A stretch of DNA of 49,573 nucleotides from a virus. Positions within the stretch are counted from its first letter, which is position 1. Each line of letters starts with the position of its first letter. The DNA lies in IMG/VR virus record IMGVR_UViG_3300030380_001627, positions 2,341 through 51,913 of that record; one strand, 5' to 3'. A program made the position numbers and the translations under genes. This document shows, piece by piece, positions 10,172 through 45,143 of the stretch. The notes below the pieces were generated by a model. It did not search any database. It was not told where the DNA came from and saw nothing but the letters and a program-made list of their open reading frames with translations.

Positions 10172-10570
10172 ATGGCTACGAAGCTAAACGAAAACACAGA
10201 GGTCGCTCTACCCCTACGCAACATCATAAGCATGGTGGCTGCGGCAAGTGTAGCGACATGGGCTTACTTTGGTATCATAGAACGACTGAACCAGATAGAA
10301 ACAAACATTACTATGATGGAGGCCGACTTAGGTCAAAACACAGAGTTTAGGATAAAGTGGCCCAGAGGTGAGATGGGGTCTCTGCCAGCCGATTCAGAAC
10401 AGTTTATGCTGATAGAACATCTGTCGAATCAGTTGGATGATTTGTCTGCACAGATAGATGAAGGCAAAGCCCCATACGATCAGCAGCAGAAGCTAACACT
10501 AGAGTTTTACGAAAAGCGTTTAAACGCATTAGAAGAAAATCTAGAGAAGATGCGTAATGGAAATCATTAA
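10172..10570 (+). CDS. Membrane-anchored coiled-coil protein beside lysozyme
   Basis: A 132-residue protein. Residues 15-35 (LRNIISMVAAASVATWAYFG) form one membrane segment, preceded by a short N-terminal tail. Residues 75-130 are heptad-like (HLSNQLDDLSAQ, FYEKRLNALEENLEKM) and probably form a coiled coil. It starts 5 bases after the lysozyme stop. I recall similar proteins downstream of lysozymes in marine phages. A role in lysis, as an inner-membrane spanin-like or holin-associated protein, would fit but is not shown by any motif. Confidence 0.7.
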   Translation: MATKLNENTEVALPLRNIISMVAAASVATWAYFGIIERLNQIETNITMMEADLGQNTEFRIKWPRGEMGSLPADSEQFMLIEHLSNQLDDLSAQIDEGKAPYDQQQKLTLEFYEKRLNALEENLEKMRNGNH

Positions 10571-24559: not shown

Positions 24560-24689
24560 CTATATAAGGTTTTTTTTGGGTTGAAGAAAAATTTTTTATT
24601 TTTTTTGAAAAAGGCGTTACAAACGTTACAAACGTTACAAACGTTATCCAGTAAGGGCTGTAGCTGTAACACTTCTGTAACGTTGTAAC
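24560..24689. repeat. A/T-tract plus six GTTACA/TGTAAC elements (candidate origin, pac or operator)
   Basis: This region, 24458-24713, lies between the leftward early genes and TerS and has no gene. It holds an A/T-rich tract with long T and A runs (about 24568-24612). Three 9-base direct repeats with GTTACA at 24616-24621, 24625-24630 and 24634-24639 follow. Then come three inverted copies, TGTAAC at 24665-24670, 24676-24681 and 24684-24689, two of them in a TGTAACACTT context. Iterons next to an AT-rich tract are typical of replication origins. Closeness to terS would also fit a pac site. An operator for divergent transcription is a third choice. Confidence 0.6.
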
Positions 24690-24713
24690 ACTTTTCAACC
24701 CGTATTGCCCTAC

Positions 24714-25304
24714 ATGAGAAGGTTTTTGACATTGAAAAAGACTGAACCCACAGAAAACACTATAGGCAAAGGTGGTAGACCGGCTGGTCTTACCAACCGA
24801 CAAAGAGAGTTTGCCAAGTATTATATTGATGGTAGATACAGCAATGCGGAATGTGCAAGAAAGGCAGGCTATGCTGCCGACAGCGCGAGAAACCATGCGG
24901 CTAAACTTCTTGACGGTAAATCTTTCCCAGAAGTGCCAGAACTTATCAAAGAACTTCGCGAGGAACGAGAGCGAAAGTATGGAGTGACATTGGTCAACCA
25001 ACTTAAACGCTTTGATGAATTGTCCCACGCTGCTGAAGAGGCTGGGCATTTTTCTGCCGCCATCAACGCTGAAAAAATACGTTCTAGTCTGGGTGGTCTG
25101 ACCATTGACAGGCGAGAGCAAAACCATGTGCATCAACTTGACAGCATGTCGAGAGAAGACATCGTTGCTAGACTTGCTGCCATACGAAAGCAATATCCAA
25201 ACGCTTTCCCCGAACCGGAGATGAAGAGGGTTGAAGATGCCAAGAACAGAACGATCACTGTGGACATCATTGAAGCAGAACCTGCCGAAAAGGACGCACT
25301 TTGA
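24714..25304 (+). CDS. terS: Terminase small subunit
   Basis: A 196-residue protein. GKGGRPAGLTNRQREFAKYY, followed by GRYSNAECARKAGYAADSAR and HAAKLL, is the N-terminal HTH of terminase small subunits that bind pac DNA. A middle helical region (PELIKELREERERKYG, DELSHAAEEAGHFSAA) should oligomerise the ring, and the C-terminus would contact TerL. The start is uncertain: ATG at 24714, TTG at 24705, or TTG at 24732 (the last has AGAAGG nine bases upstream). The gene overlaps the nuclease gene by 68 bases. It is separated from TerL by 2.8 kb of opposite-strand genes. Confidence 0.75.
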   Translation: MRRFLTLKKTEPTENTIGKGGRPAGLTNRQREFAKYYIDGRYSNAECARKAGYAADSARNHAAKLLDGKSFPEVPELIKELREERERKYGVTLVNQLKRFDELSHAAEEAGHFSAAINAEKIRSSLGGLTIDRREQNHVHQLDSMSREDIVARLAAIRKQYPNAFPEPEMKRVEDAKNRTITVDIIEAEPAEKDAL

Positions 25305-25650
25305 GCGAATTGAAAACCGATCCGGCGAGGGCATGCCTGACGTATATTTGTGCATGGACGGTGTGCCGGTATGGGTGGAATTAAAAATAGTTAAAAATGG
25401 CAGGGTCAATCCGTCAAAATCCCAGATAGCGTGGCATTCCTCGCATTCCAGATGCAAAGGCGTGAGTTTTTTCTTGGCCCATGATCCGGTGACCGGCGGT
25501 GTATATTTGTTTGACGGTGCATCTGCGGTTGATTTACTTGGTTCAAAGATAGGCGACCTGCGACCTGCGATCCGTTGGTCTGGCGACCTGCGATCTGCGC
25601 CTGTTGCGCTCCGCGATTTGTCGAAAGAACTTTGGTTCGGGACAGCATGA
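25237..25650 (+). CDS. VRR-NUC-like PD-(D/E)XK endonuclease
   Basis: A 137-residue protein. The active-site pattern is visible: FERIENRSGEGMPDVYL (Glu24, Asp35), VWVELKIV (Glu48, Lys50) and the following KSQ (Gln63). This is the VRR-NUC or Holliday-junction-resolvase-like arrangement common in phages, probably for processing branched replication or packaging DNA. Residues after about 100 are encoded by GC-rich CCTGCGA repeats (25556-25605) and are likely an accidental extension. The start at ATG 25237 lies inside the TerS gene; a TTG lies two codons before. Confidence 0.75.
   Translation: MPRTERSLWTSLKQNLPKRTHFERIENRSGEGMPDVYLCMDGVPVWVELKIVKNGRVNPSKSQIAWHSSHSRCKGVSFFLAHDPVTGGVYLFDGASAVDLLGSKIGDLRPAIRWSGDLRSAPVALRDLSKELWFGTA
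25556..25605. repeat. GC-rich CCTGCGA repeat copy R0 inside the nuclease 3' end
   Basis: Three to four CCTGCGA or TCTGCGA units occur within 50 bases (25561-25575 and 25585-25599), on the plus strand. Similar units bound every cassette to the right (25648-25664, 26433-26447, 26630-26644, 27332-27352). Here they lie in the coding frame of the VRR-NUC-like gene. Confidence 0.6.
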
Positions 25651-25685
25651 CCTGCGACCTGCGACCTGTGGTTCGCGGCTGCGCG
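25648..25685. repeat. GC-rich CCTGCGA repeat copy R1
   Basis: Three tandem CCTGCG(A) units start at 25650, followed by a GC-rich GCGGCTGCGCGGC block. It lies after the nuclease stop and before the terminator of the GP88-like gene, marking the left border of the reverse-strand cassette array. Confidence 0.6.
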
Positions 25686-25691
25686 GCACTG

Positions 25692-25726
25692 AAAAAAATA
25701 ACCGGCGACTATGTCGCCGGTTATTT
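25692..25726 (-). terminator. Rho-independent terminator of the GP88-like gene
   Basis: Perfect 14-base arms (25696-25709 and 25713-25726) with a 3-base loop. Read leftward, the stem is followed by seven T residues (25692-25698 region). It is 12 bases past the GP88-like stop. In the rightward direction only a short T-run follows, so it would be weaker for the TerS-nuclease transcript. Confidence 0.85.
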
Positions 25727-25737
25727 CAGGGAGAAAC

Positions 25738-26379
25738 TTAGTGTTGGTAATATGTGACATTGTCAACCTTGGGATCCCAGCAAGCGCGGCAGTCGCCGCA
25801 TTTACCATCATTCAACGGCGCAGGGCAAACGTGCCCGACTGTTTTGCTGCCGTGACTTGACACTGTGCTTGTGTTCTTCCAGCCTTTGGATGGTGTGCCA
25901 TCGATCATATGCGCTGACATGCGCAACGTGACGTTGTTCGGTAGCTTGCGAAGCTTCAAAACGTCGCCCCAAATTTTATATTCGCGGCTTGGGATCCAGT
26001 GTTTAAGGTGCGGCGTTGCTTCGCATATGTCCAGAATGTTTAGACCCATGCGAACGCTGTCAACGTCGCCGCTGTCGAACCAGCGGAATTCTGGCTTGCG
26101 TAGCGTGTTGAGCACCGCAACCATGCGTGGCACGAAATCCAAAGCATTGAAGAAAATCTCGCGGCGCTCCATCGCTGCGACCACGTTCGGCATGTTGTAC
26201 ATGCCTTTACATGCGTAGCACTTTTCGCAAGTGCTGCCTTTAACCTTGCGTAGTTTTTGACCAACGTGGCAAAGATACGCTGACCGGGATATTGAAAAGC
26301 CCGGCATTTTAGAAACGTTGGACAAGTTGCGCTTGTCCTCTTTAACTTGATCTTTGTAGTGTGGTAATGAATCGAACAT
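25738..26379 (-). CDS. GP88-like protein with two Cys clusters
   Basis: A 213-residue protein. I place the start at ATG 26379 (MFDSLPHYK) because of a GGGAGG site 5 bases upstream, downstream of promoter P2. The frame stays open 39 codons upstream through a repeat. Cys clusters are TCEKCYACKG near the N-terminus and CPAPLNDGKCGDCRACWDP at the C-terminus, with PEFRWFDSGDVDS and WIPSRE in between. The C-E-x-C-Y-A layout is what I recall of the phage Gene product 88 family. The clusters may bind zinc or an iron-sulfur cofactor. No enzymatic function is proven. It is a single-gene unit with its own promoter and terminator. Confidence 0.7.
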   Translation of the reverse strand: MFDSLPHYKDQVKEDKRNLSNVSKMPGFSISRSAYLCHVGQKLRKVKGSTCEKCYACKGMYNMPNVVAAMERREIFFNALDFVPRMVAVLNTLRKPEFRWFDSGDVDSVRMGLNILDICEATPHLKHWIPSREYKIWGDVLKLRKLPNNVTLRMSAHMIDGTPSKGWKNTSTVSSHGSKTVGHVCPAPLNDGKCGDCRACWDPKVDNVTYYQH

Positions 26380-26403
26380 AAAAACCTCCCTTTGGTTTAT
26401 AGG

Positions 26404-26432
26404 ATTATCCCACATAATCAAATGTATGTCAA
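26404..26432 (-). promoter_or_regulatory. Strong leftward promoter P2 (GP88-like gene)
   Basis: TTGACA (26427-26432) and GATAAT (26404-26409) on the minus strand are exactly 17 bases apart, 25 bases before the gene start. A TATCCCA half-site (26406-26412, plus strand) overlaps the -10. The -35 lies at the edge of repeat R2, and the stop codon of the 47-residue gene is inside it. Confidence 0.85.
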
Positions 26433-26467
26433 CCTGCGACCTGCGCACCTCGCGGCGGCGGCGCGGC
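26428..26467. repeat. 40-base perfect repeat, copy R2
   Basis: This stretch is identical over 40 bases to 26625-26664. It includes the GTCAA of a -35 element, two CTGCG units and a run of CGG. It encodes the last 12 residues of the 47-residue protein and provides the -35 of P2. It is far more GC-rich than the surrounding DNA. Confidence 0.9.
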
Positions 26468-26572
26468 CTTGACTGTAAAATCCAGATCCTCACCAAGCTC
26501 GTTGATATAGTCTAAAACGTCTTGAACTGTGGGTTCTTCGTCTGTGAGCAGTACTATTTCTATTTCATACAT
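26429..26572 (-). CDS. 47-residue acidic protein with repeat-encoded tail
   Basis: An ATG at 26572 with GGGAG 7 bases upstream opens a 47-residue frame, 29 bases downstream of promoter P3. Residues 1-35 are acidic with a strand-helix-strand look (YEIEIVLLTDEE, VQDVLDYINELGEDLDF). The last 12 residues (AAPPPRGAQVAG) come from the 40-base repeat, and the TGA lies within the -35 of the next promoter. It looks like a small acidic accessory protein. No family is recognised. Confidence 0.6.
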   Translation of the reverse strand: MYEIEIVLLTDEEPTVQDVLDYINELGEDLDFTVKAAPPPRGAQVAG

Positions 26573-26600
26573 AATAAACTCCCTTAATAGTGTATATGGG

Positions 26601-26629
26601 ATTATCCCATAGTATTAGATACAAGTCAA
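26601..26629 (-). promoter_or_regulatory. Leftward promoter P3 with perfect palindromic operator
   Basis: TTGACT (26624-26629) and GATAAT (26601-26606) on the minus strand are 17 bases apart. A perfect 15-base palindrome, ATGGGAT-T-ATCCCAT (26596-26610), covers the -10 element. This is the best copy of the operator-like site seen in P1-P5. Confidence 0.85.
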
Positions 26630-26664
26630 CCTGCGACCTGCGCACCTCGCGGCGGCGGCGCGGC
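26625..26664. repeat. 40-base perfect repeat, copy R3
   Basis: Second identical copy of R2, 197 bases away in the same orientation. It lies between the TAG of the 63-residue zinc-finger gene and promoter P3, again supplying the GTCAA of the -35. Confidence 0.9.
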
Positions 26665-26855
26665 TATTCATAATAACCGTCGCCACCGCAGTGTGGGCAA
26701 TCTGCGATTTGCTCACGCCACGGCGCGATTGCAATATCAACCAGCCCTGTGCCTTCGCACTCAATGCATGGCGTTGCGTGTACCGGAATGCGGAAGCCAA
26801 GCGAGGCTTCCCAGCCTTTGTTGAACTCTCTGTGCCACTTAATCGCTTCGTCCAT
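26664..26855 (-). CDS. 63-residue DnaJ-type zinc-finger-like protein
   Basis: The start is ATG 26855, with GGAGG 6 bases upstream. An earlier in-frame start at 26933 would run through a terminator and is rejected. Residues 1-27 are helical and aromatic (MDEAIKWHREFNKGWEASLG). They are followed by CIECEGTG and CPHCGGDGYYE, two CxxCxGxG-type knuckles as in the DnaJ zinc finger, but only two instead of four. It should bind one zinc ion. The gene lies directly after the terminator of the winged-HTH gene, so it may depend on read-through. Confidence 0.65.
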   Translation of the reverse strand: MDEAIKWHREFNKGWEASLGFRIPVHATPCIECEGTGLVDIAIAPWREQIADCPHCGGDGYYE

Positions 26856-26866
26856 TGTCTGCCTCC

Positions 26867-26910: not shown

Positions 26911-27231
26911 CTAACCGTAATGATATTTTCCATTTTTGGTCACGATGCGATGCCCAGTTCTACGAAGCTCGTAGATGCAATTATAAGCAGCACCAACGCT
27001 AATGCCCAATCTTTTAGATAGTTGCTTGGGCGTAAGATTACGCTCTCTCAAAAGAACTTCGCAATGTTCCTTCGATCCAACCAAATAGCTGGTATTGGGC
27101 GCACGTTTCTTAATGCTGTTTGGCACAGTCCTTAACGTGCGAATTGCTGGCTCTTCCTGCCAGTTGGATTTCACCTTGCCTTGCGACACGGTGACGATTA
27201 ATGACCCTACGGTCAGAGTAAAATCAGTCAT
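26911..27231 (-). CDS. Winged helix-turn-helix DNA-binding protein
   Basis: A 106-residue protein. Residues about 64-92 (LTPKQLSKRLGISVGAAYNC and the next helix) form a helix-turn-helix, and residues 93-105 (HRIVTKNGKYHYG) a wing. The first 45 residues have a strand-rich part and a basic linker. It has AAGGAAAGG before its ATG and lies behind promoter P4, which carries a TGGGATA site. It is the best local candidate for the regulator that reads the shared operator, but binding is not shown. A hairpin in its leader (27261-27281) could also matter. Confidence 0.75.
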   Translation of the reverse strand: MTDFTLTVGSLIVTVSQGKVKSNWQEEPAIRTLRTVPNSIKKRAPNTSYLVGSKEHCEVLLRERNLTPKQLSKRLGISVGAAYNCIYELRRTGHRIVTKNGKYHYG

Positions 27232-27329: not shown

Positions 27330-27371
27330 AACCTGCGATCTGCGATCTGCGCACCGGCCTCGCCGCCGCGC
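27330..27371. repeat. GC-rich CCTGCGA repeat copy R4
   Basis: A diverged copy of the R2/R3 element: AACCTGCGATCTGCG units followed by GCACCGG and a CGCCGCCGCG block. It lies between promoter P4 and the terminator of the next cassette, in the same orientation as the other copies. Confidence 0.75.
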
Positions 27372-27372
27372 T

Positions 27373-27421
27373 TTAAACAAATAAGAAAGGACAGCATAGC
27401 TGTCCTTTCTTATTTGTTTAA
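27373..27421 (-). terminator. Bidirectional terminator with 23-base stem
   Basis: Nearly the whole element is a perfect inverted repeat: arms 27373-27395 and 27399-27421 around a 3-base ATA loop, with A/T-rich stem ends acting as U-tract in both directions. The TAA of the 93-residue gene is inside the right arm. Confidence 0.85.
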
Positions 27422-27898: not shown

Positions 27899-27926
27899 GT
27901 CATCCTCCTTTATAAGTGACTATAAG

Positions 27927-27955
27927 ACAGTATCAGATGGCATGGGATAGGTCAA
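27927..27955 (-). promoter_or_regulatory. Leftward promoter P5
   Basis: TTGACC (27950-27955) and TACTGT (27927-27932) on the minus strand are 17 bases apart; GATACT at 27929-27934 is an alternative -10. TGGGATA (27943-27949, plus strand) lies next to the -35, as in P4, and P4 and P5 share a CATCTGATA block after it. Confidence 0.6.
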
Positions 27956-27970
27956 GCAGCATTAGCCTCT

Positions 27971-27997
27971 ATATTAGCAAAAGACTATTGCTAATAT
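27971..27997. other. Inverted repeat in the TerL leader region
   Basis: Perfect 10-base arms (ATATTAGCAA at 27971-27980 and TTGCTAATAT at 27988-27997) around 7 bases. It lies in the 236-base gap between P5 and TerL, which has no gene. The lack of a T-run argues against a terminator. A dyad operator for the late rightward transcript is possible. Two TTTGCAGG copies lie further on at about 28091-28098 and 28112-28119. Confidence 0.5.
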
Positions 27998-28134
27998 GGC
28001 AAGGGTTACTGCGTCCAGTTGTCAACCAACTTTCGGTTAACTCCCCCCACCCCCTATATCTGAAAACCTGCGTTCGCGTCACAGGCAGATTTTGCAGGGT
28101 TGATAAATTCATTTGCAGGTATTATCGTTCGAGC

Positions 28135-29625
28135 ATGGATGACATGCAAAACCTAGAACTGCTGCCAGAGGAGGTCCTAAAGGAAATCCTGTTACTGGAG
28201 GAGCAGGAACAGCGGCTTAAAACTAGGACTGAAGCCCATGATAAGTTCATGCCGTATGCGAAACATGTATATGACGGGTTTATAGAGGGGACCCATCACC
28301 GTGTAATTGCAGAGAAGTTGGAAAAGATTGCCCGGGGGGAGTTAAAACGGCTGATTGTCAATATGCCTCCCCGACATTCTAAATCAGAATTTGCATCCTA
28401 TCTCATGCCTAGTTGGTTTTTGGGCCGGAATCCGAAGTTAAAAATCATTCAAGCTACCATGAACACCGAACTTGCTGTAAGATTTGGTCGTAAGGTTCGT
28501 GATCTCATAGCTGACCCATTATATCGTGAGATTTTCCCGAATACGGACCTTAAACCGGACAGCCAAGCGGCAGGTCGATGGGAGACTAGCGCTGGTGGGG
28601 AATATTTTGCAGCCGGGGTGGGTGCTGCAATGACTGGTCGTGGTGCTGATTTGCTAATTATTGACGATCCGCACTCGGAACAGGATGCATTATCGTCTAC
28701 TGCGTATGATAATGCGTGGGAATGGTACACATCTGGACCTCGACAGCGTCTACAACCGGGTGGAACCATCATAATTGTCCAGACTCGCTGGTCCAAAAAG
28801 GATATTACGGGCCGGTTACTGCAAGCACAGCAGAAAGATCTGATGGCTGACCAGTGGGATATAGTGGAATTCCCTGCAATCATGCCTTCGGGGGAACCAT
28901 TATGGCCTGAGTTCTGGAAAAAGGACGAGCTTTTAAAGGTAAAGGCTTCACTTTCGGTGGGAAAGTGGAATGCTCAGTGGCAACAGAACCCTACATCAGA
29001 AGAAACCGCTATGGTCAAGCGGGAATGGTGGAAAGTTTGGGAAGAGGACAGCATTCCTGACCTAGATTATGTAATTCAGTCCTACGATACGGCGTACAGT
29101 AAGAAAGAAACTGCCGATTACTCTGCTATTACAACGTGGGGCGTGTTTCAGCCGCACCAAAACGGGGATCAGCATCTAATATTGATGGATGCCAAGAAGG
29201 GGCGGTGGAATTTTCCTGAGTTAAAGAGCATTGCACAGGAAGAATACGATTATTGGGAACCGGAGTTGATGCTGATTGAGGCAAAAGCTTCTGGTACACC
29301 GTTAGCGGACGAAATGAGGTTACTTAACCTCCCTGTAGCTACCTTTAGCCCGGGTCGAAAGCGTGGTGGGGGAGGTATGGACAAAACAACCCGTATGCAT
29401 ATAGTCTCTCCTATATTCGAGTCGGGAAAAGTATGGTATCCTGAAGGCGAAAAGTTTGCAGAAGAAGTTATTGAAGAGATTGCTTCATTCCCTAATGGCG
29501 ATCACGATGACTTTTGTGATAGTATGACGATGGCCTTGATGCGTTTCCGTCAAGGTGGCTTTATTAGTTTGAATGGTGAAGAGTTCGAGGACGATCCACC
29601 CCGTAAGGCAAGAGAGTATTATTGA
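28135..29625 (+). CDS. terL: Terminase large subunit
   Basis: A 496-residue packaging motor. The ATPase has Walker A (NMPPRHSKS, Lys83), Walker B (LLIIDDPHS, Asp177-Asp178) and a coupling motif region (IIIVQTRWSKKDITGRLL, 212-229). The RNase H-like nuclease has YDTA (Asp318), MLIEAKASG (Glu382) and DHDDFCDSM (Asp456-Asp462). I choose ATG 28135 (MDDMQNLELL). The open frame extends 73 codons upstream in sequence that does not look coding, and MQNLELL at 28144 is an alternative; no strong ribosome site decides. It translocates DNA into the prohead through the portal encoded downstream. Confidence 0.95.
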   Translation: MDDMQNLELLPEEVLKEILLLEEQEQRLKTRTEAHDKFMPYAKHVYDGFIEGTHHRVIAEKLEKIARGELKRLIVNMPPRHSKSEFASYLMPSWFLGRNPKLKIIQATMNTELAVRFGRKVRDLIADPLYREIFPNTDLKPDSQAAGRWETSAGGEYFAAGVGAAMTGRGADLLIIDDPHSEQDALSSTAYDNAWEWYTSGPRQRLQPGGTIIIVQTRWSKKDITGRLLQAQQKDLMADQWDIVEFPAIMPSGEPLWPEFWKKDELLKVKASLSVGKWNAQWQQNPTSEETAMVKREWWKVWEEDSIPDLDYVIQSYDTAYSKKETADYSAITTWGVFQPHQNGDQHLILMDAKKGRWNFPELKSIAQEEYDYWEPELMLIEAKASGTPLADEMRLLNLPVATFSPGRKRGGGGMDKTTRMHIVSPIFESGKVWYPEGEKFAEEVIEEIASFPNGDHDDFCDSMTMALMRFRQGGFISLNGEEFEDDPPRKAREYY

Positions 29626-44614: not shown

Positions 44615-44681
44615 GTTGTACAATGTTTTATTCCTGACAACTGCATGGTGCGGTTGACACTAGCCACGACAGGAGACTTAA

Positions 44682-45143
44682 ATGGCTACCACTACTTTCT
44701 CTGGTCCTATCAAGGCCGGAACTATTAAGAACACAACAGGCACGACTCTAGGCTCAAACATTGCTAACGTCGGTCAGGTTGTTATGGCTCAGACATTTTC
44801 AGCAGACTTATCAGGCGGTGCTCTAGCTGCTCAAGTCACTGACGTTGTTATCCCTGCAAACTCTCAGATTATTGACTGTGTGATTGACATCATCACAGCC
44901 GCGAATGCTTCTACTAACCTTAGTATCGGTGACACAGTAGGTGGAGCAGCCACAATTCTGAACACCTTTGCATCTGGAACAGACGCTGGTCGTAAGTACC
45001 CAACAACACAAGCTGGCGCTGCCTTGGCTTGGCAGGACACTGGTACAGCAGATATTCGTTTGACTGTGACCGCTTCTGCCGCAACAAACGCAGGTCTTGT
45101 TCGTTTTACAATTCTGTACCAGCAAAATAACAACCTTGCTTAA
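44682..45143 (+). CDS. Beta-rich structural protein (153 aa)
   Basis: A 153-residue Ala/Thr/Gly-rich protein starting MATTTFSGPIKAGTIKNTTG. Long strand-like stretches (QVTDVVIPANSQIIDCVIDI, RLTVTASAATNAGLVRFTIL) suggest a sandwich fold. The opening is one I recall from marine phage structural proteins. It probably decorates the capsid or forms a fibre. A GGAGA site lies 8 bases upstream of the ATG. Confidence 0.6.
   Translation: MATTTFSGPIKAGTIKNTTGTTLGSNIANVGQVVMAQTFSADLSGGALAAQVTDVVIPANSQIIDCVIDIITAANASTNLSIGDTVGGAATILNTFASGTDAGRKYPTTQAGAALAWQDTGTADIRLTVTASAATNAGLVRFTILYQQNNNLA

Follow-up and report, generated by a model that had tools for sequence, protein, structure and literature searches.

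An exact 40-base repeat in the window (the whole stretch of 49,573 nucleotides analysed here, whose parent is a virus record of 51.9 kb) was found to be one instance of a wider feature, namely (CGCAGGT)n 7-bp tandem arrays with a GC-rich core. Both copies lie before predicted promoters, and in several relatives chimeric joins read from the sequence fall in or at equivalent modules. The explanation that we favour, with moderate confidence, is that of a cis-regulatory module of this marine phage doubling as shared homology for the exchange of single-gene units. The sequence-only reading that drew attention to the repeat had missed both the tandem-array nature of its unit and the further arrays.

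Structure of the repeated module

Direct comparison confirmed that positions 26428-26467 and 26625-26664 are identical over 40 bases. When the 35-base GC part was searched for with up to three mismatches, two sites were found, both of them the repeat copies, whereas shuffles led to an expectation of 0.00. A repeat search extended the pair to 26395-26467 and 26592-26664 (73 nt, 86%), and since this likeness spans the promoter, the whole promoter was duplicated. The features of the region are as follows.

24705-25304, plus strand: terS (PF03592), left of the array zone
25552-25599, minus strand: two heptamer arrays, CGCAGATCGCAGGTC and CGCAGGTCGCAGGTC, within the C-terminal coding end of the plus-strand ORF 25231-25650
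25649-25668, minus strand: heptamer array and GC core directly after the GP88 terminator; downstream join in the L062 swap
25700-25722, minus strand: predicted intrinsic terminator of the GP88 unit, AACCGGCGACATAGTCGCCGGTT and then a T-run
25738-26379, minus strand: GP88 family gene (PF17338), behind P2
26404-26432, minus strand: putative promoter P2, TTGACA-17-GATAAT with an extended -10 (TG), 11/12; overlaps the TGGGATAATCCTA dyad; predicted driver of GP88
26428-26467, minus strand: module copy 1, GC core GCCGCGCCGCCGCCGCGAGG, heptamer array GTGCGCAGGTCGCAGGT and TTGAC; last 12 codons and stop of the 47-aa ORF
26429-26572, minus strand: 47-aa ORF MYEIEIVLLTDEEPTVQDVLDYINELGEDLDFTVKAAPPPRGAQVAG, homologue in L006
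26601-26629, minus strand: putative promoter P3, TTGACT-17-GATAAT, 10/12; overlaps the perfect dyad TGGGATAATCCCA; predicted driver of the 47-aa ORF
26625-26664, minus strand: module copy 2, identical to copy 1; starts at the last stop-codon base of the 64-aa ORF
26664-26858, minus strand: 64-aa ORF, Cys-rich (zinc-ribbon-like)
26911-27231, minus strand: HTH_11 protein of 106 aa, possible regulator
27333-27351, minus strand: heptamer array CGCAGATCGCAGATCGCAG with GC core GCGCGGCGGCGAGGCC before it, upstream of the HTH gene promoter region
27916-29625, plus strand: terL (Terminase_6C), right of the array zone

On the minus strand both copies show the same order: the GC core, the CGCAGGT heptamer array, TTGAC and a -10 within a GGGATAATCC dyad. 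The predicted promoters P2 and P3 are sound sigma-70-type matches. It had been claimed that one copy encodes the last 12 residues of the 47-residue protein and holds its stop codon inside the -35 of P2, while the other adjoins a stop codon and supplies the -35 of P3, and these details were all borne out. Read on the minus strand, copy 1 is GCC GCG CCG CCG CCG CGA GGT GCG CAG GTC GCA GGT TGA, encoding AAPPPRGAQVAG before the stop, and this TGA lies inside TTGACA. The first base of copy 2 is shared with the TAG of the 64-aa ORF, which ends at 26664, and the TTGAC of the module enters the TTGACT of P3. The description of the module as both spacer and promoter part is fair, as it abuts or supplies the -35 and also enters coding ends. 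RNA folding of the module was no better than that of shuffles for the two window copies (z -0.9 and -1.4); a fold z of -5.2 was obtained for 25640-25737, the span containing the GP88 unit terminator.

Between the window and L006, the first 35 codons of the 47-aa ORF differ at 8 codons synonymously and at 4 nonsynonymously, and the C-terminus is in frame in L006 although the GC core there has lost 3 nt. In the modules of L002, L005, L064, L012 and L062 the GC core reads either CGCGGCGGCGGCGCG or the reverse complement of this, CGCGCCGCCGCCGCG; the two orientations look as though 15 bp had been inverted.

Heptamer arrays between terS and terL

From 25.55 to 27.35 kb a single strand carries six arrays, and three of these precede promoters. 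The zone is located between terS and terL, where transcription diverges. The CTGCGAYCTGCG array pattern occurred 8 times against 0.27 expected (up to one mismatch, overlapping matches counted), and all eight occurrences were on one strand within this same interval. Lag 7 was the sole enriched lag of eight tested in the zone, with 23 windows compared to 0.07 in shuffles, a count that none of 300 shuffles reached; the signal was absent from the first 24 kb of the window. Arrays enter coding sequence on both strands, at the C-termini of the 47-aa ORF and of the plus-strand ORF 25231-25650. No recognisable promoter follows the arrays at 25553-25668.

The plus-strand ORF (139 aa) overlaps the end of terS, and its C-terminus is encoded by the opposite-strand heptamer arrays; by eye it resembles a VRR-Nuc nuclease, with no Pfam match. 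A 23-bp perfect inverted repeat with a 3-nt loop (27373-27421), predicted to form a strong hairpin, is situated just upstream of the 27333-27351 array. A 9-bp perfect tandem array, CGTTACAAA x3.6 (24615-24646), was also found about 60 nt before terS; it is the strongest tandem repeat in the window and a candidate origin or TerS site. Similar 9-bp arrays occur near the same place in L055, L048, L049 and L051.

Distribution of the arrays in related phages

Approximately 50 IMG/VR loci, all on contigs that are metagenome fragments, were gathered by scans with the module, the GP88 protein and the HTH protein. Equivalent arrays were found around the GP88 gene in about 45 of these relatives. An array lay just upstream of GP88 in 46 of 47 loci although the adjoining gene varies by lineage, in a set that was found mostly via GP88 and includes several near-duplicates, which are not independent. 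The heptamer unit is lineage-specific (CGCAGGT, CGCAGGA, CGCAGGC or CGCAGGG, and CAAGCNN in HTVC027P), and the CGCAGGNCGCAGG pattern keeps to one strand within each of the 10 records that hold it.

The closest cultured phages by terL and PolA were HTVC027P, 023Pt_psg01, DSL-LC04 and HTVC023P; a near DNA match was absent among cultured phages. In HTVC027P, a cultured SAR11 phage, CAAGCNN heptamers lead into TTGACA before gp33 (GP88) and gp34 and recur after GP88, with a lag-7 signal of 60 compared to 0.09. In the published transcriptome of this phage, gp33 and gp34 alone make up one temporal cluster, at 6-9 hpi (PMC12753301). No heptamer arrays were found in the terS-terL zone of HTVC023P, and DSL-LC04 has period-7-like repeats of another sequence. 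As the repeats of 023Pt_psg01 (described below) differ as well, the period-7 rule is not universal in the group. In the open-licence literature we found no paper on heptamer arrays of pelagiphages.

The otherwise AT-rich genome of 023Pt_psg01 (L065) contains five GC-rich GGGCCCACCC-type repeats, at 10418, 11231, 11988, 12771 and 12826, two of which are upstream of promoters in the same zone. They are possibly the counterpart of the module.

A search of relatives and metagenomes for the repeat unit, as the sequence-only reading had proposed, found a 28-mer of it in six viral contigs. The exact 28-mer had no match among 84,980 bacterial and archaeal species genomes, and the unit therefore looks phage-borne. 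A plasmid search with a 38-mer gave weak, GC-driven matches only, to unrelated genomes. Among bacterial and archaeal genome contigs, GP88 was found only in two MAG contigs, titled Opitutae bacterium and Gammaproteobacterium; both carry related arrays, and neither fixes the host.

Chimeric joins at the modules

The content between the 64-aa gene and GP88 varied among relatives. L064 and L012 have nothing there, the window and L003 have the 47-aa ORF, L002, L005, L058 and L063 have a gene X with a terminator, and L006 has both the 47-aa ORF and X. The earlier suggestion that the module is recombinogenic was supported, as natural chimeras in these relatives join inside it or at its edge. To the left of its module, L064 agreed over 60/60 nt with the outer (Zn-gene) flank of copy 2 in L005 (24/60 the other way), and from the -35 on it agreed over 75/75 nt with the GP88 promoter flank of copy 1 in L005 (38/75 the other way). 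Judged by these matches, L064 is exactly the chimera that recombination between the two copies would give, without gene X and its terminator; the comparison is compatible with deletion of X or with its gain.

L062 and L012 agreed at 89/90 positions through the module and 8/8 at the -35, after which agreement fell to 28/60. The whole promoter-gene-terminator unit differs in L062 and similarity returns at the downstream module, so that the replaced unit has joins at modules on both sides. Its gene is a diverged GP88-like one (PF17338, E 1.4e-4, below the curated cut-off). Behind the 47-aa gene come the module and P2 in the window, and the module and a P3-type promoter in L006 (66/75 to P3, 44/75 to P2).

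Of ten defined joins, five were in or at a module. Outside modules lay the two ends of GP88 in L010, the start side of the 47-aa ORF and, in L006, the 63-aa/47-aa fusion and an inserted 82-aa ORF. For five of ten joins to fall within about 12% of the zone, P = 0.004, a rough statistic, as the joins were picked by eye and the null ignores the ban on joins inside genes. Every join was at a gene border, as expected from selection for intact genes alone. In L010, the GP88 gene is of window type (85-94% nt over 80-nt windows) and the DNA after it is of L044 type (98-99%), and the change point is the GP88 stop, outside any module; the upstream arrays are likewise of the CCGCAGG type. This swap and the other joins outside modules indicate that modules are one preferred joint and not the sole one.

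Proposed role of the module and alternative explanations

Each copy would bound, on the upstream side, a short transcription unit that mostly holds a single gene. The order of parts would be GC core, 7-bp array abutting or supplying the -35, -10 in the GGGATAATCC dyad, and then the gene with its ribosome-binding site. The array probably serves as a cis-regulatory site, predicted to bind a regulator protein, because it lies upstream of the -35 in several units, is conserved in divergent phages and is associated with co-expressed genes in HTVC027P. Near-identical copies recur at one unit boundary after another, spaced by a few hundred bp, hence general recombination between copies, within one genome or between co-infecting phages, could delete, insert or replace the intervening unit while every unit keeps a working array and promoter. 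We infer that module homology was the cause of the observed exchanges, and the recombination machinery of the phage or the host would be the agent.

It is possible, though clearly less probable, that the arrays are only regulatory, serving as activator or repressor sites for a gene class, with genes turning over by other routes and the modules simply marking gene borders. Arrays before promoters are conserved in very divergent relatives, and the array genes of HTVC027P are co-expressed (PMC12753301). GP88 of L010 was swapped at its ends while the downstream DNA, arrays included, stayed of L044 type (98-99% identity), and hence the module is not needed for swaps. However, the perfect two-sided chimera L064, together with L062 and its two joins at modules, is what module homology predicts.

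Less probable still, we consider it rather unlikely that the zone is a replication origin or a pac/cos site, with the heptamers as initiator iterons or TerS-binding repeats and the promoters coincidental. Iteron origins and TerS-bound pac repeats are tandem direct repeats. The arrays resemble them in forming tandem direct repeats at one locus per genome (a zone of 1-2 kb with all arrays on one strand), which in the window lies between terS and terL where the two transcription arms diverge. The cumulative GC-skew minimum was less than about 4 kb from the zone in 4/4 genomes and therefore leaves room for an origin or pac role, although GC skew is confounded with gene direction. Unlike in such sites, several arrays abut a -35 in the window and in HTVC027P, and the separate 9-bp array by terS offers an alternative candidate site.

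That the module is an actively mobile element, MITE-like or REP-like, copying itself between intergenic sites is very improbable, even with two perfect copies in diverged flanks and the phage-borne look of the 28-mer. If "mobile" in the sequence-only reading is taken to mean an element that moves itself, it found no support: the module lacks ends, a target duplication and an enzyme of its own. Transposable elements of this kind have inverted ends or duplicate their target and are dispersed in both orientations, whereas here no inverted ends or target duplication were seen, and in the relatives examined the arrays stay in a single zone with the same orientation. The unit also differs by lineage (CGCAGGT, CGCAGGA, CGCAGGC, CAAGCNN) and is thus not one spreading sequence. 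Assembly duplication of the second copy, which would have overturned the earlier reading, can practically be dismissed, for although identical 40-mers a few hundred bases apart are prone to misassembly, separate contigs carry the modules: L003 has both copies with one base differing in copy 2, and L002, L005 and L006 have the pair with other genes between.

To return to the module as regulatory element and exchange joint, we advance only tentatively the more specific reading of a cis-element of HTVC027P type, in which heptamers of fixed 7-bp period and lineage-specific sequence co-evolve with their reader and both define an expression class and serve as exchange joints. If this were true, co-infecting phages could swap accessory units with regulation kept. 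This bears on the open question of how small accessory genes come and go in lytic marine phages while regulation stays intact, and the wild sequences show the joins at base resolution. Since HTVC027P is cultured, has the same architecture and has a published transcriptome, both the regulatory and the recombination claims are testable.

Comparison with known systems

PeSL cassettes were reportedly treated by Arbiol in 2010 and Comeau in 2014. In T4-type phages, these mobile regulatory cassettes recur between genes and contain promoters, and related phages exchange small accessory genes at them (PMC4503421). The module is likewise a promoter-bearing intergenic repeat unit at which genes are shuffled among relatives. 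It differs in that neither window copy has a stem-loop and a terminator precedes only some modules (for example 25700-25722, and between X and its module in L002 and L005). Also unlike those cassettes, its repeat, placed upstream of the -35, combines a 7-bp tandem array with a GC core, is confined to one 2-kb zone and is unrelated in sequence. The genome is not of T4 type, being nearest to HTVC027P, HTVC023P, 023Pt_psg01 and DSL-LC04 by terL and PolA.

Morons of lambdoid phages are promoter-gene-terminator insertions (PMC1524935), and the replaced unit of L062 is similarly such a unit between conserved genes; however, the joins here coincide with a repeated homologous module and the phage is not lambdoid. 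The archaeal halovirus HF2 has dispersed intergenic repeats with promoters whose activity was shown (PMC8707807). The likeness lies in dispersed promoter-containing intergenic repeats with positions conserved among relatives, whereas the promoters here are predicted. In cluster K mycobacteriophages, SAS/ESAS repeats are found linked to translation starts (PMC3203893). Like the module, they are short, differ by lineage and accompany the starts of particular genes, but the module is a tandem heptamer ending at the -35, upstream of the start codon.

The sole Rfam match in the window was RF03012, Mu-gpT-DE RNA (44632-44684, plus strand, 68.3 bits), in a phage that otherwise looks HTVC027P-like and not Mu-like.
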